Below are positions 30,800-64,000 of a stretch of 64,000 nucleotides of DNA, in pieces (within the stretch, counting starts at the first letter, position 1; every line of letters starts with the position of its first letter). Below the pieces are notes generated by a model. That model had not been told where the DNA came from, did not search any database, and saw only the letters and a list, made by a program, of their open reading frames with translations. Origin of the DNA: Hypholoma sublateritium FD-334 SS-4 (lineage: Eukaryota > Basidiomycota > Agaricomycetes > Agaricales > Strophariaceae); contig KN817657.1 in the NCBI GenBank assembly GCA_000827495.1, forward strand, positions 1-64,000, in the 5' to 3' direction. A program made the position numbers and the translations under genes.

Positions 30800-31830
30800 T
30801 TATGTAAAGGGTATTATTCGACATAAGTAGTTGCATGCCAGATGAATCACAGATGGAGGGAAAGCATCACTATCAGTGCATCTGATGTCCCCGCAGTTTA
30901 ATTTGTGGATGTGCTGAGCGGAGCCAATAGGAAGCCCGGCAACAAAACGGATCGCCTCATTGACAGTGAACATTCAATGTACGATTCTATCCGGACGCCA
31001 GTGTGAAAATCGATGAACCTCGTTCCAATCGATTTCGAGTCGTTTGATCCTTGGACTCGAGGGCCTGACGCCGGTGACGACGAACCAAGCGGCTTGCGTC
31101 TTTGTTCCATTTTTGAGCGCAGTACGCCACACAAGAGACTCTCACGCACACCTTATCGCAGGCGTTGCAGAGATGCCCCTATGCGTATATCAAAAACACA
31201 CGCCGTGATCTCCACCGTAAGGCCGTTCGCTTTGAGAGCGAGACCACGCCCCGGGTATGCTGCCGTACGTGCAATGGGGACCAAGAATGACCCGCTTTGC
31301 CTGTCGAGCGGACGTGTGTGATCATTCGCAGCCTATCCACCGCATCGTGCTGCTCGGTGACGCGGTGACGTGGCCGTATGCTCTACTTGGTGCGTGGGTG
31401 GTTTATCACCGCGAGACGTTCCATCAGGCTTCTTAAAAATGGATTGGACCAATCAACGTGGACCATAGCAACCCCTCCAAAGCGGTGGCCAAGGATGTCC
31501 CATGCTTGTTTCTTCTCGCGGTCATCACGAATGTTCGCCTCAGAGGTTAATCGCAGTACAATGGGGCTCGTCTTTGTTGAGGTGCGATGAAAAGATATGT
31601 TTCATAAACGAAGGAGGCGATCTGCGGGCTTTGATAGCGTGTGCTGGAGTCAATGAAAGTGTCTGACCGAGCAGATGATCGTGAAAGCCAAAAGCAAAAG
31701 TTTTAGGCGCCTAAACAAACAAAAAGAAAATCACGTGTGTTGTTTTGATTCATTTGTCAAAGGCTTCTGAGTCATCAGGGAGGTGTTGGCCGTGGATGAG
31801 CGCACATCGTACGCCCAGCAGCGCCCCGCC
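30800..31830. other. Spacer with one coding-like segment
   Basis: Between the Fic relic and the SET gene. On the minus strand about 31405-31560 reads EANIRDDREKKQAWDILGHR and then VHVDWSNPFLRSLMERLAVI before a stop, with natural amino-acid use; it could be an orphan exon of an unknown gene. The rest shows nothing recognisable. The region next to 31830 should contain the SET gene promoter. Confidence 0.35.
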
Positions 31831-34800
31831 ATGAACGGTGGCCGCGCTTTCTACACACCCAACTCGCCCCATATGACAATATCTCACGTCGCTTATGCGT
31901 CGCCAGCCCCCGCGACGTCGTCGGCGACGCTCAACTCGATTCTCACAACCACGGCATCGCCTAGGGCGGCCGCCCAACAATTTCAGCACACAATACATCA
32001 CCAACAACAACGACGACATCAAGAACCCCCCATGACAGTTCCAGCGAAACGGAAGATCCAGGAGATGTCCCAGAGCCCGCAGGGAACGAGCTACCACCTG
32101 GACGAACCCCTCCACACGCCTCTCAGCGGGAAAGGCTCGCACATCGGCCACAACGGCCTCCACACACCACCCACTGCGGGCGCCACAGACGTCTCAACGG
32201 AGGCGGTCGACTGCATATGCGGCTTCGCCATCGACGACGGCTTTTCCATCGCCTGCGACATCTGCTCGCGGTGGTGCCATTCAGCGTGCTTTGGCATCGA
32301 CTCAGGCGGTCTCGTCCCCGACTCATTCGTATGCTGGGTATGTAATCCACGGTCACACCACGTCAAGGAGATGGCCATCGCCCTGCAGCGGAGTCGTCTC
32401 GACGCTGGTCTTTTGGGGGCTTCGGGATTGGGTCTGGGGCTTGGGCTTGGCGGGCTGGGCGACGATGGAGGGAAGCAGCGACGGAGGGTCAGTCCCGGGA
32501 CGGACAGGAAGGCGAGGAGAGGCAGTACGACCACAATCGAGAGTGGAGGGCCAACAAAGAGACGACGGCGGCCGTCCGTCGTACAACACCCAGTCGCAAT
32601 GCCCCCCACGCCCTCCATCCCATCCTTGCCCACACTACCAACATTGACATTGCCCACGAATACCGTCACTGCGCACCCCATGGCCCCATCAACGTCATTA
32701 ACGAACGGAGTTGCGGAGGAGGAGCATGTGGATATCGACACGGAGCCGTGGACGGCGACCTATGTGCCGATAACGAAAGACATCATCCCCGACGACGAGA
32801 CCCGATCCAAGTTACGCAGGCAGGCCCGCGCCTGGCGGGGCGTTACCGCCGTATCATCATCGCCTCCGCCCTTTGCATCGACTGAACCAGTCTCGCTACC
32901 GAAGCCACCTTCGACGCCGCCCATAGCTATCCGCGCCCTGCCCCCAACACCATCACCCCTTCTACCGTCAACTAATCCTCATTGTTTGCCACCCTCGTAC
33001 GCCACTTACACCACCCGCCCGCTACCCTCATCTTCCATGCTAGTCCCCTTTCATTCTCTTATCACCCCCACCGCATCCTATCTCCGCGAACCCACGAACG
33101 GGTACGCAGGCCTCGGCATGCCAAAACCCCATGTCCATCTACTCGGGCCGCCGCTGGGCGTCGCACTCGACGCGAGAGGTGTAGGAAGCGAGGGCCGCTT
33201 TGTTCGTTGGGGCTGTCGGCCAAATGCCGTGCTGCGTCCCGTTATATGCCGCGAGGCCAAAGCGACCCAGAAAGGGATCAGGAGAGAGGAAGCTATCGAC
33301 ATCGTAGATGAAGATGCAACGGAGGATGAGGATACGCACGCCGAACATGAGCGCCGCAACAGACGCAAGGCTGAGAAAGCCCGTGCAGATGACGCCGAGG
33401 CCGAGGACGACGATACAACGCTCGGCTTCGCCGTTTTCGCACTGCGTGATCTCAAGGAGGGTGAGGAAGTGGTGCTGGGCTGGGAGTGGGACGACGGCCA
33501 TGCGATCCACCGGCTGCCCGCGCTGCTGAAAACGCCGGGTATGTTTCCGTAAGTCCCATTTCTTTGTTTTACCTTGGATGCTGGTTGACGAACGTGCAGT
33601 CCGCTACCTGCGCACCACGCTAAACATAGCCCTGCCGAGCTCCTCCACCTTCGAAACCAACTGTCGAACATCCTCCACGCCCTCGCCTCGACTTTCACCA
33701 CCTGCGCATGCGGATCCACCGCGAACGACTGTGCGCTCATCGCTATGGCCAACATGGTCGAACGTCTGGAGAGCGCCGGTGCAGATTTCACCGACTGGAC
33801 GCCACTGGATGCCAACGAACGCCGCTCGTCGTATGGCTGGGATCAGTATGGCACAGACGACGAGGGACGCCAGGAGCGCGGACTGCCTCCGTATCGCGCG
33901 CAGCAGCCGACATGGCCGGATGCGGACATGGGGCCGTTGATTGGACGGAAGCGGGGGTTCAGGACGCGGGAGCGGGTTCCATTAAGTGGCGGGCTGGGAG
34001 GGATGGAAATCGTTGACGAGGAGGCCGATGCAGAGCGACGGGCGAAGGATCAGACGAAAAGACGTACGAACGGGAAGGCGTTTGTTATTTCTGCAACGCC
34101 GGAGACGCCGAAACCGAGTCCCAGGTTTAAACTCTCCGTTGTGACCCCCGACGGCGAAAGTCATGGGAAGGTGAAGGGAAAGGAGCGCGCGGTGGACGGC
34201 GACGTGGAAATGCGGGATGGAGATGGCACTGAGTCTGCAAGATCTATGCCTGTGGACGGTATTTCTCCAATTATTTACAGTGATAAAGTTGACGCTGACC
34301 TATCCATTTCTGTCGCAGATCGCCCGGTCGACAATGTCCATCTACATCCCTACTCGATACTGAACTCGTCGATACCTGCATCGCGCGCGCATCCTAATCT
34401 CGAACCGCGACCGCCGGACCCACCGGACGAGAACAAGATGCCACCGAAGATGCGGAAGCGGTGGATGCACCGCGAGGTTGAGGCGCGCAACAGTCGGCGC
34501 GATGTGCCCCCACAGAAGGACACATTGTTCAGCATGAGTCCAGGGTCGGATGTGATGTCGGTTGATGCGGCCTTTCGAAATGGGGGCGTTGGCCTTGGGA
34601 TCCGGTTCGACATCCCAGAGGCAGAGCACGGTGAGTCTCCCACAGGGTATTTTATCGAAGCCCTCTCTAATCGCGCGCGCCTGACAGACGAGGTACCTCC
34701 CACTCGAACTCCACCGCCTTCGAGCGAGCACGATCTGCCCACCGATCTGCCCGATCATGCTGAGCGATCTCAGTCGGAGCACCCGGAAACTTCCCTGATG

Positions 34801-37578
34801 CCCCCGCCGCCGCTACCTGCCCCGCGCGACACGAGCCCCGTATCACCGCAATACCTTTCGCCCACCACACCAACGCCGTCTCCACCCTCGCCGCACTTGG
34901 CTACGCCCTCGCCGACGCACAACTTCGCCAATGGCCGACGCTCGCCGCGCATCGCGCACGCTGAACACGGTGACCACAGCGACCGTGACGCTGCGGCGAC
35001 GCGTCTGTTCCATGATCCTTACCAGCAAGCCAAGGGCGCGATTGCTCCGCCGCTGGCGACGTCACCGCTGCATGACTTTGCGAATCTCTCGCTCCTGAGC
35101 CCAGCAGCGCTTGCTCAAGCGCGGGCGCAGGCGGTCAGCAGGGCTCCGTTTAGCACCTTGTCGGAGCCAGACGATGCGGCGCGCGAGACAGAGGCGGAGG
35201 CGGAGGCTCCACGCGATGATGACGTGGACATGGAGTCGGGCGAGGATGAAGAGCACAAGGGTGGCGAACAGCAGCTCGCCGAGCAGCCGGCGCCGGTCGA
35301 CGAGGGAATGGAGGTGCAAGATGAAGTGGAGTGGAGTCCGCTGCGTCGAGTGGAGAAGGTGCCCGTTGTCGAAGTCGAGGTGCATGCAGCGTCCGACCAT
35401 GAGCCACCGAGTTCGTCTCCTGAGGTCGAGGCTGTCCGACAGAGCGTGATGCTAACTGTGTCACCACTCGACTCGGTCGCGTCCACGCCCACCGCGCGGC
35501 TCTCGCCACAGCCCGTTGTCGCCACGGTTATTCCACCTGTGAATGGGGCAGTCGAGGAGGAAGAGGGCGTGCACGAGCAGTGCGTAGCGAAGATGCAGGT
35601 CGATGAACAACATCCGGACGTTCCAGTTCAGAGCACACCATGTGTTGCTGTGCCAGAAAACACAGCACCGCCGCCCGCGAACTTCTTCGACACAGACGAC
35701 CCAGACGAGTGGAAGCGCCAGATGGAAACGAGCGTGTCCCTACCTTTCCCTGCGAGGGCACCCTCGCCGGAAGTTGTGCATGGCGAACCGGACGAAGACG
35801 ACGCCGCTCAGAAGACGCCCATTCCTACGTTCGTTGCGCCGCGCGAGCGACTGCAATCGGAAGATTCCTTACGCTCGGGCTCGCCATTCGAGGAGATCAC
35901 TGTGACGGTGGTAGTACAAGACGAAGCGGAGGTTGAGGAACCACCTCCACAGTCATGCCCCACGGCTGACTCGGAGCCGCCACCGGCGTCTGCGGAGTCA
36001 TCCGCGGCGGTTGAACCTTTAATGGGTGATGTTGAGACGCCTCGGCCTACCGTGGAATCCCCGGACGCTCCCCTACCCGCAAAGGACACCAACTTCGAAC
36101 CCACCGTTGGCGATCATGTTGTATCGCCCGTCGAGCAAAGCACCGCCGCTACCCCGCGGCAGGACTCCCAGGAACCAACATCCCCCGCAACGCAGCCCAA
36201 GGTCAAAAAGATCACCCTGAGAGAATTTGTGGAGCGCAAGAAACAGCTACGCGAGGAGATGGAGGCGGCGAAGAGCGCGCAGGCGTCTCCCATGAGCGCC
36301 ACATCGGCTCTCGCTGCAGATGAGCGCGAGGGCCAGGGCCAGGGCGGGGGTGCCACCCCCAAGTCGTCGACTGCAAGCCCTGCCATCGTCAACTTCACGC
36401 CGCAGTGGATGCGCGAGCCGGCTGTTGCCGCCGGCCCGGTCGCAGCGACGCCGAAGGCGCCGGACGCCGTTCCCACCCAGAAAGACAAGGATCTGGGAGA
36501 GCTGCAAGCGCTCACTCTGGCCAAAGCAGCGGAGAATCTGGCGGAGATCGCGAAGCGCAGCGTCAATCTGAAAGCCTTCCAGGAAAGCACGAAGCATTCG
36601 GCAATCAAGCCCGAGTGGTTGCTTGCGAAAACCGCGATTGGGAACGACAAGCTGCTTGACGCTCCTGGCGCTCCCGCCCTCTCCACGTCTGTTGTCCCCG
36701 CTCCAGTTTCTAAGCCTCTAGAGCAGCGCCCGACGTTGAATGGGTACCATCAGCCACCTCGGGTACCTTCCCAACCTCCAGTCCTGCCTTCGTTCGTCTC
36801 GAAGGCTGTTCCCATTACCTCAACGCCCCCTCCTCCATCGATGCATGTTTCGACGCCCATCCCTGCAATATCCGCGGTAAATACTCGGGAAGCGAAAAAG
36901 GAGCTCATTGACATCCCTATGAGCAGCCTGTCCGCCACGCGACCATCAACGTTAAAGCCGGACATTCCTCCAATCTCAAGCCCGTACCTCGCACCGCCCA
37001 TGCGCTCGATGTACCCCGACCGCTCAATCTCACCCATGGGCCCGGATCTGGCGCACTCATTTCACTTCCGCCGGCCGTCGCACGAGGACGGCGAGATCGG
37101 CGAGGGGTCGCCGCCTATCGTCATTCCGCGCTCCAGTGGGGCGAACAGCACGTTCATGCCAAAGACGCGCCCATTTGCGTCGGGTCTGCCGCCGGTGCCA
37201 TCATCATCACATTCACCACCAACGGGGCCGCGTTCCCTGTACGCGCCCTCGGCATCGCCAACGCCATCCTTCAGCGGTGGTGGCGGTTCGCACTACCGTC
37301 CTGCGCCGCCGCCGCATGTGGTACCGCCTGGCTCCGCCGCTGCCGCAAACAGGCCTTTGCCACCGAGCGCACCACGGGCGCTGAGGAATTCGATGATGTC
37401 GGGGAGGTCGGGTGGTGGTGGTGGTGGTGGTGGTGGGAATGCATCGTCGTCGTCTTACCCGTACGGCGGGTCGCAATACATCCCCCGTGGTCCGTTAGCT
37501 GACCAGCGGGATCGTGATCGTGACAGGGACCATTCCCGGCCTTATCGGCGGCGGCCTGGCGGTGGTCGGGCGCGATAG
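31831..37578 (+). CDS. SET3-like: PHD-finger and SET-domain protein, Set3/MLL5 type
   Basis: Likely the chromatin-reading scaffold of a Set3C-type histone deacetylase complex. Exon 1 is 31831-33548 and exon 2 begins at 33600 after a 51-bp phase-2 intron. Two further stretches in exon 2, 34259-34318 (60 bp) and 34631-34687 (57 bp), have GT-AG ends but stay in frame; the product is about 1859 codons if both are removed, 1898 if kept. I start at the ATG at 31831; the open frame begins earlier but without ATG. The PHD finger is at about 128-175 (CICGFAIDDGFSIACDICSR, WCHSACFGI, CWVCNPR). The SET domain spans about 380-573, interrupted by an acidic insert. Its NHSC-like motif reads RFVRWGCRPNA, as in catalytically silent Set3/MLL5 proteins. 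A Cys cluster (CACGSTANDC) follows. The C-terminal two thirds are disordered, Pro/Ser/Glu-rich, with a Gly run and an Arg-Asp tail. Confidence 0.9.
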
Positions 37579-39901: not shown

Positions 39902-40843
39902 TTAAATACGTTCATCCGGATCCTCGCTGCCACATGTATATTCCATAATCCCTTCCACCGCCGAGAGTCTATATAGCACCTTCAGGCCCTTGAATCTTGC
40001 AAGTGCGTGTGATTCGGGTGGGGCATTGAGAGGTAGATAATTTGAAATGTCCACCGTGGTAATGGGATGGCCTTCTTGCAACCTTGAAAGAAGGAATGCC
40101 GCGGCACTTCGGTTAACGAAAAAGGAGCTTTGAGAAGAGCTGATATATTTGCGAAGGTCGATGACTTTGAGGATGGGGAATATAATAATTGGCTTTTTGG
40201 TGACTCGATTGATGTTTTGGAGATGCACGAGATGGGAAAGTGTTCTGAGATCAGTAGAAAGAATTTCCACAGATGGAAGGTGGCTAAAAAATGGGAGGAA
40301 ACATGAATTCAATCGACAGTTGGAAGTGAACGAGAGCTTCGTAACGCTTGTGAGATCCAGCGGGATTGGCTCCCGTGTCTTCAAGAATGTTTCAAGCAGA
40401 GGTGCGTCAGAATTTGCTTGCAGTGGTATTGATATACTGAGTGAGTGCTCAACCGGAAGAGTGGTTCGATATGTCACGCAGAACGTATGGTACTGTTGAT
40501 AATTAAAGTCTATATGCGATTTCAAAGCAGTGGCGCATTTGGTGTGCTGGGCGAATATGTTGACAATGGAAAGAAGCATTGGGTTTTCTTCGGTAAACGT
40601 GGCGCGGTCGTAGTAACCGTTAATCCGAATGGTCAACGAGCAATCCACGGGGATCTCTATGTGATCCAGAATGTAGACGCCTTGTTTAGAGCGACCAGTG
40701 AGCTCCAGGTGCTTTAGGCGTGAAAGAGATGTAATGGGGAGGGCGATGTTCATGTCGCAGTCGGAAATACTCCTGAGTTTTAGCTCTTGAAGGCTAGGCA
40801 TCGTCGGGAGTATTGAAAGGACATCAGAGACACTGTACGACCA
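39902..40843 (-). pseudogene. F-box gene, C-terminal half (split by element)
   Basis: Codes for the leucine-rich C-terminal part of an F-box protein, starting WSYSVSDVLSILPTMPSLQE and containing LKHLELTG, VTKLSFTSNC and VEILSTDLRTL, ending EDPDERI. It has no F-box and no good start of its own. The reading frame continues exactly from the N-terminal half at 42759-43391 once the inserted element and one target-site copy are removed: 211 codons plus 313 codons, a 524-residue protein without stops. The half gene is undamaged otherwise, so the break is recent. Confidence 0.85.
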
Positions 40844-40850
40844 ATTTAGT
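40843..40850 (+). repeat. Target-site duplication, left copy
   Basis: AATTTAGT, identical to 42758-42765 and directly flanking the inverted repeats. An 8-bp duplication is the only length above 6 bp that keeps the element ends symmetric. Confidence 0.8.
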
Positions 40851-41506
40851 ATGGCGGTCCGATTATGGAAGTATTCCGCGTAAATTCAAAACTGCGCGTG
40901 AAAGTTTTCAATGCAATGAAACGTCCCTCAAATGAATTGTAACTGCCCCGTAGATTATGACGACTTCCCCGTAAGAATTAAACACTCCCCGTAAATATTA
41001 AGTGCTCCCCGTAGATATTGAATAGAGCCCCGAAAAAGTTGAGCAGTCCCCGAAAATGTTGAGACACATTTCAATCTGCCCCGTAAATGCTCCCAGCTCC
41101 CCGAAAATTACCAGGCACCCCCATAAACGCTCCCCGCTTCCCCGTAAATATCAAGTTGCTCCCCCGTAAAGACTGAGATATAAGGTTTATGAGCAGGCCG
41201 AGGTGCCGTGATTAGGTAAATGATCCGTCGGCATGCGATCGGCTCTGCTGGCTGACTTCAAAATTCAATTCCCACCACTCAGAAGCAGCGCTAGGTGTGT
41301 CGCCGTCTACGCCAGGGCATGCTCACCTCGTCGAAACGGCGCTTGCGCTGCTCGACGCGTATGCCAGAACCTCAAACGCAGGCGTCCTCACACTCAATAT
41401 CGTCGCGAGCATCGGCGCGGAGGCGCGGCGCGGCGCGGAGGCGTGCGTCATTGGAATATGATCGAGGAGTCTCGGGACTCAAATGACTCAANCGTTTGGC
41501 CTGTAA
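40851..41506 (+). repeat. Terminal inverted repeat, left arm
   Basis: Pairs with 42102-42757 (position sum constant at 83608 across the arm). The outer part is gene-like AT-rich sequence, the middle (40946-41166) an array of CCCCGTAAA-type motifs, the inner part GC-rich with a coding-like frame (ALALLDAYARTSNAGVLTLN and onward). Confidence 0.9.
40946..41166 (+). repeat. Phased CCCCGTAAA motif array, left arm
   Basis: C-runs followed by GTAA, GTAG or GAAA begin at 40946, 40967, 40987, 41007, 41028, 41048, 41079, 41099, 41118, 41132, 41140 and 41161. Most steps are 20-21 bp. The bases between motifs vary, so only the motif and spacing are conserved, unlike a simple minisatellite. Confidence 0.75.
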
Positions 41507-41889
41507 ATTACACAGGCCNGCGGAACGCCGCTGCGACTCCTTGATCGCGGTGCAGTGACTCGGCGCGTCCCCCTGGTGGTATCTGTGAAACCCCCACATG
41601 TGTAGCGGCGCTTGGCAAGACTATAATGACGGACATGCTGTTACGAACTAATTGTCCTCTGTTCTCGTGCGGGACGTTGTGCGCTTCTAATGAACGTCTG
41701 CAGACCCAGATCCCTCATTTCCACCACCATTTACTTACTGATGCAGTGTTGCTCGACTGGGACACGGTCCCTTACACACCACATGCTCGCAGCTGGTGTA
41801 CTGCAGGTAACTTGACGTGTCCGCTGCATTTGGCTAGGACAGAATCANAGTACTACCGCCGCCGCCCGTGTTCATGCACGCGTCCCGGC

Positions 41890-41928
41890 GGAACGTCAAG
41901 ATCAGGCGCCGCCTGATCTTGACGTTCC
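41890..41928. repeat. 39-bp perfect palindrome in the element spacer
   Basis: 19-bp arms (starting GGAACGTCAAGATCAGGC on the left) around one central base at 41909. It is not at the centre of the outer inverted repeat (about 41804). Confidence 0.9.
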
Positions 41929-42101
41929 ACGCTCCACAGGCCGTGGACTCGCGCACCTTTGAGAAGGTGTGCTGCACCGAACGGTATCTACAGGTTGTAA
42001 CAGTATCGCCGTGAATATTTGTCCCTTCCAAGACTGACTGATGCTCTGTGAAATGAGCATCTATTACATCGGCCCATTCAGCGCAGGCACAGAGCAAGCA
42101 C

Positions 42102-42757
42102 TTACAGGCCAAACGCTTGAGTCATTTGAGTCCCGAGACTCCTCGATCATATTCCAATGACGCACGCCTCCGCGCCGCGCCGCGCCTCCGCGCCGATGCT
42201 CGCGACGATATTGAGTGTGAGGACGCCTGCGTTTGAGGTTCTGGCATACGCGTCGAGCAGCGCAAGCGCCGTTTCGACGAGGTGAGCATGCCCTGGCGTA
42301 GACGGCGACACACCTAGCGCTGCTTCTGAGTGGTGGGAATTGAATTTTGAAGTCAGCCAGCAGAGCCGATCGCATGCCGACGGATCATTTACCTAATCAC
42401 GGCACCTCGGCCTGCTCATAAACCTTATATCTCAGTCTTTACGGGGGAGCAACTTGATATTTACGGGGAAGCGGGGAGCGTTTATGGGGGTGCCTGGTAA
42501 TTTTCGGGGAGCTGGGAGCATTTACGGGGCAGATTGAAATGTGTCTCAACATTTTCGGGGACTGCTCAACTTTTTCGGGGCTCTATTCAATATCTACGGG
42601 GAGCACTTAATATTTACGGGGAGTGTTTAATTCTTACGGGGAAGTCGTCATAATCTACGGGGCAGTTACAATTCATTTGAGGGACGTTTCATTGCATTGA
42701 AAACTTTCACGCGCAGTTTTGAATTTACGCGGAATACTTCCATAATCGGACCGCCAT
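42102..42757 (-). repeat. Terminal inverted repeat, right arm
   Basis: Reverse complement of the left arm. It reads G at the position opposite the N at 41492. It contains the mirror copy of the CCCCGTAAA array at about 42442-42662. Confidence 0.9.
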
Positions 42758-42765
42758 AATTTAGT
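42758..42765 (+). repeat. Target-site duplication, right copy
   Basis: AATTTAGT, identical to the left copy at 40843-40850. Confidence 0.8.
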
Positions 42766-43391
42766 ACTATGGAATGGAGGTGATATAACCATGGCGCGCG
42801 TTGATTAATAAAATGGCGGTTGAGGTAGATACTGCGAAGCACCGGTGCGTGGTTGGCGAAGAGAGGTCCAGCGCTTGCATCGTTGCCTGGCACATGAGCC
42901 TCCCGCATAATTAATGACACTTCACAGTGTTCTAGCTGCGGTGCTGGAAAGCACAACATAGAAAAGGCGAGCTCTCTGTCAATATAAGTGTCAAATACAA
43001 ACTTTTGAATCCGGTGCCAGTTCCCGCTGACAAGATCAAACAAAAACCGCGCGATGTATCTTGCGTGGATTGACTCGTGCCTCGCGATCATGTTGCCTGA
43101 TGACTCTACTCTGATCCACAGCAGTGCGTCCCCACTTCTTCGAATAAGCTCATTGTGCCATTCGTGGGTCCTGCATTTGGAGATCTCATCCATATCAACT
43201 TGAATGAGTTTAGCCCACAGAGTTGGCGTGTCGAGCATCAAGTTGCGCCATTGGCGGCACCCCTGTGATGCGATGCGCGTGTTGTGAAGAGCTTGTCTGT
43301 CGGCGAACATGTCGGCGTTGAATGCGAATATGTACAAGAGGACGTCGTCGTAGAGTGCGTGAATAGAAGCAAATGGCGGGTTGGCTGGCAT
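42759..43391 (-). pseudogene. F-box gene, N-terminal half (split by element)
   Basis: Starts at ATG 43391 and encodes the F-box (ASIHALYDDVLLYIFAFNAD, then QGCRQWRNLMLDTPTLWAKL) and the first leucine-rich segments, reaching LYHLHSIVLN at the element boundary. Reading continues 31 codons into the right inverted repeat before a stop at 42666, so any transcript would give a 241-residue protein with an intact F-box and a foreign tail. Such a truncated product could still bind Skp1; this is an inference. The C-terminal half is at 39902-40843. Confidence 0.85.
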
Positions 43392-46199: not shown

Positions 46200-47249
46200 T
46201 CCGCAAATTCGGTGTCCTCGCACGACGCGCGCGTCCGCTTGGAAATGCATCGTCAGTTGCGTCTCGCCGGCGAGCGCGTGCGTGCTTCTCGTGAAGGGCT
46301 CGGTGCGGGCGCGTCGGTGCAGTGCAAGACGTCGACGTAATGCGGAGCAGATGAGGGAGCTGGTGTATACTGAGTCGGGGGTGGTTATCACGGGCAGGAA
46401 TGGGAAATGCGGAGGGTGCGTACGCTTGGAGAGGGATGTGCACACCGCGAGAAATATTACCGTGGGTATCTCAGCCGGCGGGGAGGGGGAAGAACGCAGG
46501 AAGGGAAAACGCATGGTTATATGGCATAAATTTGTACTAGATGAACGTCAGCACGGGGAAGATGGCGAGGAAACGGGGCGTACGATGATGATCACAGTAC
46601 GCGCCACGACGCTGCAGGACGTGGCAACCCACTCAGCTGTGGATAATTTACGAAGTAGAGCGGCGCACATCGTAAGGATCCCCGTGCGCAGCGTACAAAA
46701 ATTAGCTGCACGCATCGCGTGAGGACCCACGCGTGCATGCGCGCGACGAACACGCGGCGACCACCGTCGCGCCGGTGTACGTCACGAGCGCGCAGCGCAC
46801 GGCCGCGGGTCCGACGTGGCGGAAGGGCGGCGGGAGGACGGTGTGTGGTCTGTGGCAGAAGGAGAGCTACGCGCAGGGGTTGTTGTATTTTGGTTTTGGG
46901 AATTGGACGCCGAGCGCGGGGTGTGGAGCCGGAGAGGAGGATGTTGGTGCGGCATTTCATATGAGACATTGATGGTGCGGCCGAGCTCGAGCAGCTTGGG
47001 TACGGAGCGCGTCAGCAGGCGCGGCGTCGTGGGTACCGTTCTGACTCACCCAATACCGCTGCTTTGTTTATAAGATAATTAGAAAGAAGCGTTGATAGGC
47101 GTAGACGCAAAATAAATTCGAGGCACGAGCGCCTTTAAGTAGCGCCGGTTCTCGGAGACTTGCTGAAAGTAGTGACGACGCCGAACAGAAACACAGACCC
47201 CACGCTTGCAGATCTTGAGCGCACCGAACGTCGTGGCTGTTGTCGCCAT
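46200..47249 (-). pseudogene. DUF6534-type membrane protein relic (copy 1)
   Basis: The ATG at 47249 begins MATTATTFGALKI, matching copy 2 at 62012 (MTTIATMFGVLEIGGAVSVF). Copy 1 then lacks the bases encoding the TFQTHIY segment and runs out of frame, but resumes ENRRYLKALV, equivalent to RYRRFFKVLV. Downstream exons survive only as scattered similarity shared with 61.2-61.6 kb (for example the frame with ARMHA around 46.74 kb). It forms the left, divergent half of the duplicated block with the ARMC8 gene. The 3' limit is approximate. Confidence 0.5.
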
Positions 47250-50125
47250 CGGTGCCGCTGGAGAACGCAAGGCGAGGAGAGGAGTATGGAAGTGGGCGTG
47301 GCCGCTGGGAAGGCTCAGTCATCCTTATACGCTGGCGTGAATAGAAATGCCGTATTTTTTTAGCGACGCGGTGCCGGATTCGAGTCTTTTTCAAGATCCT
47401 CGTTGGTTGCGATTAATTGGTGTTTGCTCTCGGTGAGTTCTTGGAGCTATCTTGGAGCGCGAGTACTTATGTAAAGGATCGGCGTGGCGACGCACCCTGC
47501 GTTGGATGTGGTTGGTGTTCTACTACATAGGCGCTCTTGTGCACTCGGTTATATGTGAGTCGAATAAAGCGAGAGGGAACTGATAGAACAAATGTTTCAA
47601 TATTCTGCGAGCTGCTGGGGACAGTCTACGTACCATATTCACTGCGATTCTTGATCGTTAGCGTGGAAATTTGAAATAAAATTCCTTAGGCTGAAAATTT
47701 CCGTGGGCTAATTATCGAGGGGAGATTGACTAGCTCCCATTACTTTCACTTGATTCACTGCTGCTACGGCGAGCTAAGGCGAGCGAAACGGATCGCGAGT
47801 CGCGGCGGGATGCCAAGAATAGAAATAGTGGCATTGGATTGATGGCGGGCCGCGATGTTCCCACACTATCTTGTTCGTCGACGACGATGACGATCAGCGT
47901 CGGGCGGCTCAAGGCCGTCAAGAACGCCGCCATCGGCAACCCCAAGACGAAGGCGGCCCTGGCGCAAGACCCCGTCCTCCTCGCCGCGTACGTCCCGCCC
48001 CATCCTGCCCCGCCCGCCTAACCGCGCCCAGCCTCATCGACGCCCTCCACGACCAAGACCTCGCCGCAGAGGCCGCACATGTCGTCGCGTCCATCGCTCT
48101 CGGCGCCGACGCTGCTCTCCATGCCCTACTCGCTGCCCATGCACCCCGCGCCCTCCTATTCGCTCTCGCCGCCCATCGCGAGCCCCACACACGCGCCGCC
48201 GTCGCCCGCTCCCTCCGCGTCCTCGCAGCTAGCATCGCCGACGCCGTCGGTCCCGCGCTCTGGGGCCTTGCACGAACACCCACGCGCGAGCTGCGCGCCG
48301 CCGCCGCCGCCGCGTGCGATGCTCTCTGCATGGCGGAGGCGCTCGACATCTACTTACCGTTGCTGGCCACTCCGTCCCCCGCCGCGACTGCCATTGCACA
48401 GTTGCTGGAAACGCTTCTGCGTACCCCGGCTCGACGCGCCGCAATTACGAACTGGACGCCGTCCCCCGCGAGTCCGGAGCAGACGACTCGCAGCAGGCGT
48501 GGGTGGGAAAAGACGGCCGCGGCGACGACGCCTGTCGTACCTGTCATCGCCAAGTGGCTGGTCACCTTGTTGGATGCCCCGGGGAAGAATAACAAGGTGC
48601 ATGATTTGCTATCTTACTGTTCTGCTCATAATCGAGCTCGTAGATGGACGAAGTCGTACTATATGCGCTCGCCGCGCTCGCTCAAGAAAATCCCACCATC
48701 GCAGGATACCTGGGCCAAAGTGGTGCGTGGCTTCAACCTGTTTTTCGACCATTTTCTGACGATATACAGACGCCATTCCGTTAAATACAATCATTACCTT
48801 TGCTAAAAGCCGCTCCGCCGAGGTCCAGGTCGCCGCCTGCCTATGGTACGTGCCTTAACTCAGTAATTCTCGCGCATATATTCACGTTTTCGATGCGTAG
48901 CATAACCCACACGTTACGCTCTCTCCCACCCCGCCCGCCGTCCTCGTCTCACCCGCAACCCCGACATTCGCACTCGCACTCTGCGAGCACGTCGTACCCC
49001 CACGCCCACATGCCGACCATCCATAGCCTCGTCCACGCTCACGTCGCAGCTGGGGGATCGACCCATGCCCTATCGCCCACGCTTGAGGAGACGGGCGTGC
49101 GCACTGTGCTCAACGTCGTTAATCGCATGTTATCCGCCGCGCCAGCGGAGAGCCCGCTCGTGCGCATGCGCGCGTGCTTCGTACTCCGTGGGTATTTCAC
49201 ATATATTTGTCGATAATGATCTAATGTATGATATAGACCATCTGGTCGCTGACGACCTGCAGCTGTGCAACGCTGCGCTCGATCGCGGCTGCCTCGACGC
49301 TCTGGGGGCGCTTATACTTGCGCTAGGACCGACGGAGCCTGCTCCGCCGGAGTGGGAAGAAGCAGAAGCCGCCGCGACGCAGGCTCTGCGCGAGGTGCGC
49401 CGTCTCATTTCTTCATAACTTGTATATTCAGTCTAAATTATGCCCGCATTTAAGGGCGCCCTCACAGCCCTTGCCTCGCTCGCCCTTGCATCGGACGACG
49501 TCCGGCGGCGCATCGCATCACCACCGCTCTCCCTCTTCCCGTCCCTCTCCCGCGCGCTGCGCGCGACGCACGTCGGCACGCGCTACGCTGCGACCCAGTG
49601 CGTGCGCGCGATGAGCCGCGGCGTCAGCGTGCTCAGGACGGGCGTCGTCGATACGGGATTGGGCCTCGATGTTTTGTGCATCGTGCTCGGGACACCGCTC
49701 CCTGCGCGCATTGGTGGGAGCGGTGCGGGTGCGAATACGGCCCCCGGTGCGCGGGTGACGGATGTAGAGGCAAAGTGGGCCCCCGAGGACACGCCGTTGG
49801 GTGATGGCGGCGACTTTCTACGCGGGGAGGATCGGCGGGTGCTTGGCGCGGCGCTATCGGCGGTGTGTAATATCGTGAACGATTTTTCGCCTCTGCGGCC
49901 CGTGCGTGCTCTGTTTATTCATAAAAAATATAACGCTGACTTCTGTGCGGACAGGCGTACCTCGAGAAGAACCTCGTTCCGCGCCTTGTGGAGCTGCTGC
50001 GCGCGTCGAGCGACGGGCCGCTGCGCGTCAGCGCGCTGTGGGCGGTGAAGAACCTTGTGCGCAAGGCGAGCACGGAAACGAAGCGCGATGTGATGCGGTG
50101 TGTGGGGTGGGAGGAGTTGCTTGGG
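46270..50125 (+). repeat. Segmental duplication, left copy
   Basis: The block of DUF6534 relic (minus), divergent spacer and ARMC8-like gene (plus) is repeated at about 61.2-64.0 kb in the same orientation. Exons and several introns align by eye; the right copy carries deletions. The block limits are approximate because the right copy leaves the window. Confidence 0.75.
47250..47841. other. Divergent promoter region, copy 1
   Basis: Lies between the DUF6534 relic and the ARMC8 gene. The last 100 bases resemble 62250-62345 of copy 2, so the promoter was duplicated with the gene. No distinct core element was recognised. Confidence 0.4.
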
Positions 50126-61199: not shown

Positions 61200-62012
61200 C
61201 TGCTTCTTGTGAAGCGTTCGGTACGGGTGCGGTGTAGAACGTCGACGGAGTGCGCATGGCAGTGCGTGCGTGGTACATAGGGAGAGGAGGAGGCAGCGTA
61301 CATGGTGATCACGCTCAGCGCTACGACGACGCAGGATACAACGATGCAGTCACCCGGGGATAATTTATCTCTTAAGGAGCCCCGCGCGCAGTGTGAATGT
61401 TATGAACCGCTTGTTCATGCGCGACGTCCGCGCGTTGCAAATAGAAAGCTCACCAATGCAGCGGCGATCGCGACCTCAATTGTCGCCCCAGCGCTTGCAG
61501 CTCGAGGACCCGTGCGTGCATGCGCGCGACGAACGCGCGGCGAGCGCAGTAGCGCCGGTGTATGTGAGTAGCCCGAAGCGCACAGTTGCGACGAGGCGGA
61601 AGGGCGGCGAAAGGACGGTGTGTAGTCTGCGGTAGAAGCAGACTCAAGAGTTGCGGCTGTTTTGTGGGGTGGTGGGGATGGGGGCGAACACGCACCTGGG
61701 TGAGAGTGGCGATGTAGGTGCCCATCGCACGGAAGTGGAACGGTATGGCCAATACACGCGTCAGAAGGGGCGGAAAAGTACATTTGTAGTGTGGAACTCA
61801 CCAAATGCCCCCGACCCATACAAATAATATCCGAAGTCGATATCAGGAGTAGATGAGAAGCGAATGCACTGTACGAGCACCTTGAAGAAGCGCCGATATC
61901 TGTGGAAACGCTGGAAGTATATGTGTGTCTGGAAGGTGACAACACCGAAGAGAAACACAGAGACCGCGCCGCCGATCTCGAGTACACCAAACATCGTGGC
62001 TATTGTCGTCAT
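61200..62012 (-). pseudogene. DUF6534-type membrane protein relic (copy 2)
   Basis: The first exon is well kept: ATG at 62012, MFGVLEIGGAVSVFLFGVVT, then FQTHIYFQRFHRYRRFFKVL before a GT donor near 61890. This is the first membrane segment and the Gln-x-x-x-Tyr-Phe-x-Arg motif of basidiomycete DUF6534 proteins. Later parts are only echoes: TIEVAIAAALVSFLFATRGR at about 61.4-61.5 kb and CIVVSCVVVALSVITMYAAS at about 61.3 kb, in frames separated by stops. It corresponds to the relic at 46200-47249 and is part of the duplicated block. Confidence 0.6.
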
Positions 62013-64000
62013 CGGTCACGGTTCCGCTGGAAATCGCAAGCAGCGGGGAGGAGATAAAATATGTGTGCACGATTATAGGGAAGGTAAACACAACGAGCGT
62101 CGAGAGGCACCTGATAAAATGGTCTGTTACGTTCTGCGAGCGGCCGCGGAGGGACTACGCATCATATTCACTGCAATTTTCCAACGTTGCTGTGAAATTC
62201 GAAATGAAAGTTTGTCACGCTGAAACTTGAAACGGAGTGATTATCGAGATATTTTCGGTGACCTGACTAGCGCCCGTTGGTTACAGTAGAGTTTCCACTA
62301 ATGCGAGCGAAATGGATCGCGGATGGGCTAAGAATAGAATGAGTGATGGCGGCCCGCGAAGTTCCCATACGATCTTGTTCGTCAACGACGATGACGATCA
62401 GCATCGGGCGTCTCAAGGCGGTCAAGAACGCTGCCATCGGCAACCCCAAGAGCAAGGCGACTCTGGCCCAGGACCCCGTCCTCCTCGCACGTACGTCCCG
62501 CCCTATCCCGCCCCGCCCGCCTAACCGCGCCCAGCCTCATCGACCCCTCCACGACCAAGCCCTCGCTGCAGAGGCCGCCCACGTTGTCGCCTCTCTCGCC
62601 CTCGGCGCCGACGCCGCCCTCCATGCCTTACTCGCCGCCCAAGCACCCCGCATCCTCCTCTTCGCCCTTGCCAACCACCGCGAGCCCCACACACGCGCCG
62701 CCGTAACCCGCGCCCTCCGAGTTGTCGCAGCCAGCACCGCCGACGCCGTCGGGCCTGCCCTCTGGGGCCTGACGCGGACGCCCTCCCGCGAGCTGCGCGC
62801 GGCCTCCGGGTGCGTTTTTGTCCCACCTTACTGTGCCGCTCGTAATTGTTGTTGTAGATGGACGAAGCCGTACTATATGCGCTTGCCGCGCTTGCTCGCG
62901 AAAATTCCACCGTTGCTGGATACCTCGGGCAAAGTGGTGCGTACCCGCGATCTCTTTTTTGACCATTTTCTGACAGTGTACAGGCAGCCGGCGGCTCAGC
63001 CAACGCCCCGCCGCCCACGATAGAGGAGATGGGCGTGCGCACGGTACTCAATGTCGTCAATCACATGCTCTCTGTTGCGCCGGAGGAGAGCCCGCTTGTG
63101 CGCATGCGCGCGTGCTTCATGCTACGTGGGCATTTTTTACTTGTTAGTTGTAGACAAAGATCTAATTGTGGTATAGATTATCTGGTCGCCGATGACCTGC
63201 AGCTGTGCAATGCCGCGCTCGATCGCGGCTGCCTCGATGCCCTTGGGGCGCTCATACTTTCACTGGCACCGACGGAGCCGGCCCCGCCAGAGTGAGAAGA
63301 GGCAGAAGCTGCGGCGACGCAAGCTCTGCGCGAGGTGCGCCGTCTCATCTCTTTACGATTTTCATATCTGATCAATATTATACCCGCTTCGCAGGGTGCC
63401 CTCACAGCTCTCGCCTCGCTCGCACTCGCATCGGACGACGTCCGGCGGCGCATCGCGGCCCCGCCGCTCTCCCTCTTCCCGTCGCTCTCCCGCGCGCTGC
63501 GCGCGACGCACGTCGGCACACGCTACGCCGCGGCCCAGTGCGTGCGCGTGATGAGCCGCGGCGTCAGCGTGCTGAGGAAGAGCGTTGTCGATACGGGATT
63601 GGGCCTCGATGTCTTGTGCATCGTGCTCGGGACACCGCTCCCTACACGCAGCGGCGGGGGTGCGAATACGGCCCCGGGCGCGCGGGCGGGTGATGTAGAG
63701 GTGAAGTGGCCTGCGGAAGACGCGCCGGTGGCTGATGGAGGCGACTTTTTGCGCGGTGAGGATCGGCGGGTGCTCGGCGCGGCGCTGTCCGCGGTGTGTA
63801 ATATCGTAAACGACTTTTCTCCCCTGCGGCCCGTGTGTGCACTTCTGTTTGTTCAAAAAAAATCAATGCTAATATATGCGCGACAGGCGTACCTCGAGAA
63901 GAACCTCGTTCCGCGGCTGGTGGAACTGCTGCGCGCGTCGGGCGACGGGCCGCTGCGCGTCAGCGCGCTGTGGGCGGCGAAGAACCTCGTGCGCAAGGCG
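61220..64000 (+). repeat. Segmental duplication, right copy (runs off the window)
   Basis: Same gene order and orientation as 46270-50125. It includes the DUF6534 relic, the divergent spacer and the ARMC8-like exons. Confidence 0.75.
62346..64000 (+). pseudogene. Broken second copy of the ARMC8/Gid5 gene, partial
   Basis: Aligns with the intact gene at 47842 from its start (MAAREVPIRSCSSTTMTISI) to the window end (RLVELLRASGDGPLRVSALW). Lesions: one base is missing at the end of exon 1 (CTCGCAC before GTACGT) and another at the start of exon 2 (CGACCCCTCC for CGACGCCCTCC). About 0.3 kb encoding the segment after SRELRAA is deleted. The exon with AKSRSAEVQVAACL and the His-rich insert is absent. 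The Trp codon TGG of EPAPPEWEE is TGA at 63293-63295. Later exons (LTALASLALASDDVRRRIA, SAVCNIVNDFSPLRP) remain clean, so decay is uneven. It cannot make a full ARMC8 protein. Confidence 0.8.

Follow-up and report, generated by a model that had tools for sequence, protein, structure and literature searches.

A 1909-bp transposon with giant inverted arms splits an F-box-like gene of the basidiomycete Hypholoma sublateritium FD-334 SS-4. The preferred reading, to which we give a probability of roughly 0.78, is that of a non-autonomous IS3EU-like transposon in this gene, with arms derived by inverted recruitment. The window is the whole stretch of 64,000 bp that was analysed (contig KN817657.1, positions 1–64,000); it represents contig 140 of the 46.1-Mb, 281-contig genome that was searched for relatives, and the window copy is named C140. 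The insertion event itself is ordinary, a non-autonomous transposon having entered one gene out of a large family. The features are as follows.

39902..40843, minus strand: 3′ part of the split F-box-like gene, 313 codons and stop
40844..40849, plus strand: left target duplication ATTTAG, 6 bp
40850..42758, no strand: putative non-autonomous IS3EU-like transposon, 1909 bp, ends TATGGCGGTCC..GGACCGCCATA
40850..41506, plus strand: left terminal inverted repeat, 657 bp, one N as its only discordant column
40946..41169, plus strand: subterminal repeats of the left arm with the core CCCCG(T/A)A, many of them spaced by about 20 bp
41208..41226, plus strand: inner arm box GTGATTAGGTAAATGATCC of the left arm, common to the other arm subtype
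41507..42101, no strand: core between the arms, no coding assigned
41890..41928, no strand: 39-bp near-perfect palindrome within the core, also kept in copies C183 and C30
42102..42758, minus strand: right terminal inverted repeat, 657 bp
42382..42400, minus strand: inner arm box of the right arm
42439..42662, minus strand: CCCCG(T/A)A subterminal repeats of the right arm, coordinates from mirror symmetry
42759..42764, plus strand: right target duplication ATTTAG, 6 bp
42759..43391, minus strand: 5′ part of the split F-box-like gene, 211 codons

The inverted repeat is gapless over 656–657 bp, its single discordant column being an N of the left arm at window position 41492, and the arms are spaced 595 bp apart. 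A perfect repeat of 656 bp together with the flanking duplication excludes chance. An earlier note, made from the letters of the window, had described a 1907-bp element with 656-bp arms and an 8-bp duplication. The long gapless arms stand, but the arms are now 657 bp long and the element 1909 bp, with a duplication of 6 bp, because the outermost T and A are part of the element itself (49 of 50 tips; 19 copies). The flanks read AATTTAGT at either side; these eight letters are, on each side, the 6-bp duplication, a terminal base of the element and one base that agrees by coincidence.

Relatives elsewhere in the genome, which had been expected, do exist: a search with the element arm gave 25 matches. 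The tip ATGGCGGTCCGATTATGGAA was searched in the genome allowing up to three mismatches, and a T precedes it at 49 of the 50 sites (the exception is C28:365742). The sample read comprises 19 complete copies and 11 single ends; C183 is truncated and not counted among the 19. All 19 complete copies fit TATGG..CCATA ends. Their duplications are exact at 6 bp in 15 copies, 5 bp long in three, all of which have GCGCA-type arms, and 6 bp with one mismatch in the remaining copy.

These flanks bear on whether the window element might instead be one of the transposons with 8-bp duplications, i.e. hAT, Mutator-like or Zisupton, which is extremely improbable. AATTTAGT flanks ATGGCGGTCC on both sides, and ATGCGCAT occupies the equivalent positions in copy C16. 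However, C16 is the only one of the other 18 complete copies with identical 8-letter flanks in this register, and all 19 fit T..A ends with 5–6 bp, one of them with a mismatch. The 8-bp duplication of these three groups is thus not a feature of the family, and the 6-bp duplication indicates IS3EU-like elements.

No transposase was found in 40850–42758, as the earlier note had also observed. The open reading frames of at least 100 aa, two mirror 103-aa arm frames and a host-gene frame that enters the right end, have no assigned function. The element must therefore be moved in trans, and because the copy is non-autonomous it is placed in IS3EU only by its ends and its duplication; the IS3EU label as such is based on ends, duplication length and one domain match. 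A transposase acting in trans would have the 12-bp tip as its recognition site, with the subterminal repeats as a probable second one. Long matches to the core (41507–42101) are confined to copies C183 (98%) and C30 (96%), and two further short matches of 77–78% lie in C18:168882–169142.

Arm subtypes and the origin of the giant arms

The family has two arm subtypes, with CCCCG(T/A)A repeats in nine complete copies and GCGCA repeats in 10, and both have the 12-bp tip and the inner box in common. When the box was searched as GTGATTAGNTAANTGATCC with at most two mismatches, 40 matches were obtained, whereas the reversed control gave four; of these 40 matches, 38 are inside family elements, mostly about 340–375 bp from the tip (117 in C44). 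Judged by alignment, the subtypes hardly align between these two landmarks. Three CCCCG-type arms are there 44.5–50.9% identical to arms of the coding elements, compared with 35.8–48.8% for shuffled sequences; the window element's arm outside tip and inner box gives 46.6–49.1% vs 40.8–42.3%, only slightly above shuffled sequence, the real and shuffled ranges overlapping for C18_167. No coding copy with CCCCGTA arms was found in the genome.

Four copies are asymmetric, with arms only 69–73% alike: C131, C79_124 and two large elements of 13.7 and 7.8 kb. The fifteen others have arms 89.7–100% alike. A tree was built from 49 arms, 38 of them paired and 11 single; in it the two arms of a copy are exclusive sisters in 11 of the 19 copies, whereas those of the asymmetric copies fall in different clades in all four cases. 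Both arms of C18_445 group with right-type arms, their mean identity being 85.8% to these vs 73.3% to left-type arms. For C18_457 and C92 both arms are among the left-type in the tree with a mean identity advantage of only about one point, and C183b leans toward left-type arms by 2–3 points. C79_48 and C138 favour right-type arms by identity (about 81% vs about 75%), yet their tree position is outside both groups. Several small family elements have two near-identical arms where larger elements carry two different ones, and some of the small ones seem to have received the same end of an asymmetric parent twice. The giant arms would most likely result when repair of an excision gap takes the same end as its template.

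The closest trio of copies adds detail to how arms may lengthen. C30, C140 and C183 have a common left half and core, but differ in their junctions, and the arms are 432 bp, 657 bp and 913 bp long, respectively, because sequence beside one arm was copied inverted beside the other. C30 has a unique right interior; in C140 and C183 an inverted copy of the left side stands there, at different junctions. C183 is without the outer 149 bp at its far end, and 64 bp are missing from both arms of C140 in comparison with C183 (about 70 bp in comparison with C30). The C140 and C183 arms may represent two independent extensions, or one extension and a subsequent internal deletion with conversion between arms. 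From these comparisons the giant arms look derived. One 46-Mb genome thus holds copies with two different arms, copies with near-identical arms and sister copies that were differently lengthened, and the family provides a way to test how giant inverted repeats arise.

The split gene and the age of the insertion

In silico excision of 1915 bp yields one open minus-strand frame of 524 codons (211 + 313), in agreement with the earlier note. The join is exact; it aligns without gaps in 29 of 30 related proteins, and the remaining one (P0085) has a one-residue insertion. The interruption of the gene therefore stands, but its domain does not reach the profile cut-off (PF12937 F-box-like, 16.7 bits vs 24.3), hence the term F-box-like; the name appears to depend mainly on source labels of some related proteins.

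The F-box-like family is represented in the genome by at least 83 matched stretches, two of which are the halves of the split gene; 83 is a lower bound, and 82 of 127 candidates were scored. The closest other copy, at C18:443183, is 54% identical. An uninterrupted allele, which the earlier note thought worth seeking, was not found among the 83 genome matches, where nothing but the halves exceeds this 54%, and an uninterrupted second copy is also absent from the protein collection (30 matches, best 53%). The TATGG..CCATA transposon with its 6-bp duplication entered one of dozens of F-box-like genes; the family is large, and the loss of one member may have had little cost. A dense cluster of F-box-like genes is located at C18:307826–515154 and holds two transposons, C18:445324 and C18:457596, the first of which lies about 0.6 kb from the split gene's closest relative.

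Other features of the window include two regions (46721–50068 and 61504–64000) about 14 kb apart in direct orientation, which have blocks 78–95% identical and are a segmental or gene duplication. A 589-codon frame at 31783–33549 contains a PHD finger (PF20826) as well as a SET match below threshold, and a 1277-codon open frame at 33745–37575 has no Pfam match at E 0.01.

The insertion had been called very recent. This is in keeping with zero differences at 656 comparable arm positions and with the intact duplication and host frame, but the identity of the arms cannot serve as an independent clock: in 11 of 19 copies they pair with each other as exclusive sisters, so that arms were made alike during transposition or earlier. 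For the divergence since the two arms last matched fully, the upper bound is about 0.0023 per site (Poisson 95%, 656 positions), a figure that dates homogenization or insertion, whichever came later, because the arms of most copies were made alike. In the outer 555 bp the window element differs from C183 by 1.3% and from C30 by 2.3%; the corresponding values for the next 700 bp inward are 2.6 and 4.4%. These two are the nearest relatives, and a donor close to identity was not found; a transposon that moves by cut-and-paste does not have to leave one behind.

It is fairly unlikely, although not far-fetched, that the arm identity and the impression of recency are partly an artefact of assembly, or came about when the arms of an older insertion later converted one another. 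The assembly is a draft in which read collapse may have inflated arm identity, with three N in the 1909-bp element, one of them in the left arm, and up to 14 N in related copies. Arms are also made alike in general, those within each of the nine CCCCGTA copies being 94.1–100% alike and those across copies 84.2% on average, and both C140 arms are without the same stretch, as described above. However, diverged arms do occur, in copies C45, C8 and C93, and a young insertion agrees with the intact 6-bp duplication and the intact 524-codon frame. We infer that the age of the insertion is low.

Candidate transposase genes and comparison with known systems

An active source elsewhere in the genome had been predicted. 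Contig C18 has two large same-ended elements with transposase-like genes, the 13.7-kb and 7.8-kb elements, but both are of the other arm subtype. The 13.7-kb element has a 6-bp duplication and a PF24764 rva_4 integrase core (E 7.3e-39); its integrase gene appears in different frames and looks interrupted. Among 10 scanned open reading frames of this element there is no TET/JBP or alpha-kinase domain. The rva_4 domain is found at eight places in the genome, one of which is between family tips; at the other seven, family tips were not found nearby. End scans took in C10 and C135 of these seven, the other five being on C45, C16, C59, C173 and C216, and gave weak candidates only, e.g. C135:54376–56030 with TGCGCA.

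The 7.8-kb element (C18:154244–162077) has a 5-bp duplication and an open gene of 13 exons and 1615 codons at C18:155828–161332. The encoded protein has DUF6729 and a WRN-like exonuclease situated between acidic residues that resemble a DDE triad. In an alignment of 54 sequences including the query, counted over non-gap rows, the DDE-like residues are kept (D486 in 47/49, D554 in 49/49 and E1195 in 46/46), as are those of the exonuclease (D627 in 44/47, E629 in 47/47 and D777 in 52/52). Most of the 54 homologues carry the label hypothetical protein or exonuclease. The noncoding interior of the element recurs in C18_445, C131, C79_124 and the C97 locus, and on C26 over 614 bp at 99.8%; that of the 13.7-kb element, when compared with the loci fetched, had a match in the C10 rva_4 locus alone.

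Perhaps, then, the driver of the family is this 1615-aa protein, DDE-type with an embedded WRN-like 3′–5′ exonuclease, and not an integrase-type protein, the TATGG ends having been acquired by exchange or convergence. This is a real possibility, if somewhat short of an even chance. It would fit the open 13-exon gene, the conserved residues and many homologues, the recurrence of its element's interior in several family loci, and the different frames in which the integrase gene appears. The protein core, however, shows no link to a known transposase: Pfam gives DUF6729 and exonuclease, and PDB sequence and fold searches gave exonuclease-type proteins only among the matches listed. In a homologue the order of predicted strands and helices supports the core, but the model of homologue P0050 is weak, with a mean pLDDT of 63.9 and values below 50 around its E1070. 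Furthermore, DUF6729 occurs at six places in the genome and family tips flank just one of them; end scans at C36, C180, C167, C34 and, in one scan only, C49 gave weak candidate ends (C36:135332–143795 with AGTACT; C180:11865–17734 with TGCTT) or none. It should be pointed out that the scans are themselves weak, as the stretches were possibly short of the ends, and TAYGG scans missed the 7.8-kb element because of its 5-bp duplication; a general scan detected it.

A broader proposal, and quite an unlikely one, is that Agaricomycete genomes have an undescribed DDE recombinase family (D486, D554, E1195) with a complete WRN-like 3′–5′ exonuclease between the second and third catalytic residues, TATGG ends and a 5–6-bp stagger, in which exonuclease processing often leads to one end being copied back inverted. 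If true, an exonuclease-bearing recombinase would generate giant-armed non-autonomous elements, the window element among them. A literature search on DUF6729 gave no paper, and neither literature joining transposase and exonuclease nor literature on Hypholoma and transposable elements has a title on the 1615-aa protein among the matches listed. The DUF6729-exonuclease homologues may be transposases, and the same-ended element is a concrete lead.

Two further loci belong beside these elements. At C26:15249–16402 a tip is followed by 7.8-kb-element sequence (the 614 bp measured above) that stops after 1154 bp; it is either an incomplete copy or a break in the assembly, and has been taken as a sign of recent activity. 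At C134:43428–51753 facing tips 8.3 kb apart, one with a single mismatch, delimit a third large same-ended element, which was read in part.

Returning to the IS3EU-like reading, the excerpts available of the relevant papers describe IS3EU elements of rust fungi with 6-bp duplications, TIRs longer than 30 bp and ends TAYGG..CCRTA (PMC12730594), and complete IS3EU families with TA..TA ends and usually 6 bp (PMC10045372). IS3EU is a superfamily of eukaryotic DNA transposons, treated also in PMC8955403; fungal members are found in rusts and Tuber indicum, and Styx of Zymoseptoria is a relative (PMC12730594, PMC10853768). The family here is alike in its TATGG..CCATA ends, which fit TAYGG..CCRTA, in its 6-bp duplications (exact in 15 of 19 complete copies; ATTTAG in the window copy) and in TIRs well over 30 bp (TATGGCGGTCC..GGACCGCCATA, 657 bp). 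Autonomous IS3EU copies have an IS3/IS481-like integrase-type DDE transposase; the same-ended 13.7-kb element bears an integrase-type core domain, in a frame that looks interrupted and between arms of the other subtype. It is unlike IS3EU in that the window copy has no transposase or other gene found, 657-bp arms and subterminal repeats, and in that a second same-ended element bears the DUF6729-exonuclease protein instead.

Mutator elements have 8–11-bp duplications, unlike the 6 bp of the family here. The likeness is in the long arms, which in long-TIR Mutator-like elements carry transposase-binding sites, as far as the source excerpt goes (PMC3310237).

The closest likeness in the way arms grow is with Galileo, a Drosophila element of the P superfamily with 7-bp flanking duplications, in which, in the part of the account available, arms lengthen when internal sequence beside one TIR becomes inverted beside the other (PMC3573991). 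Its two-TIR and extended-TIR (2RT) copies, as described there, are also non-autonomous and about 2 kb long, with mostly giant arms of variable length. The trio's graded arms on a common left half and core are what such inverted recruitment of adjacent internal sequence would produce. Galileo differs in superfamily and duplication length, and here small elements seem to double one parental end. Arm growth thus resembles Galileo-type fold-back evolution, in this case in a fungal IS3EU-like family, and the resemblance would be one of a way of working and not of kinship.
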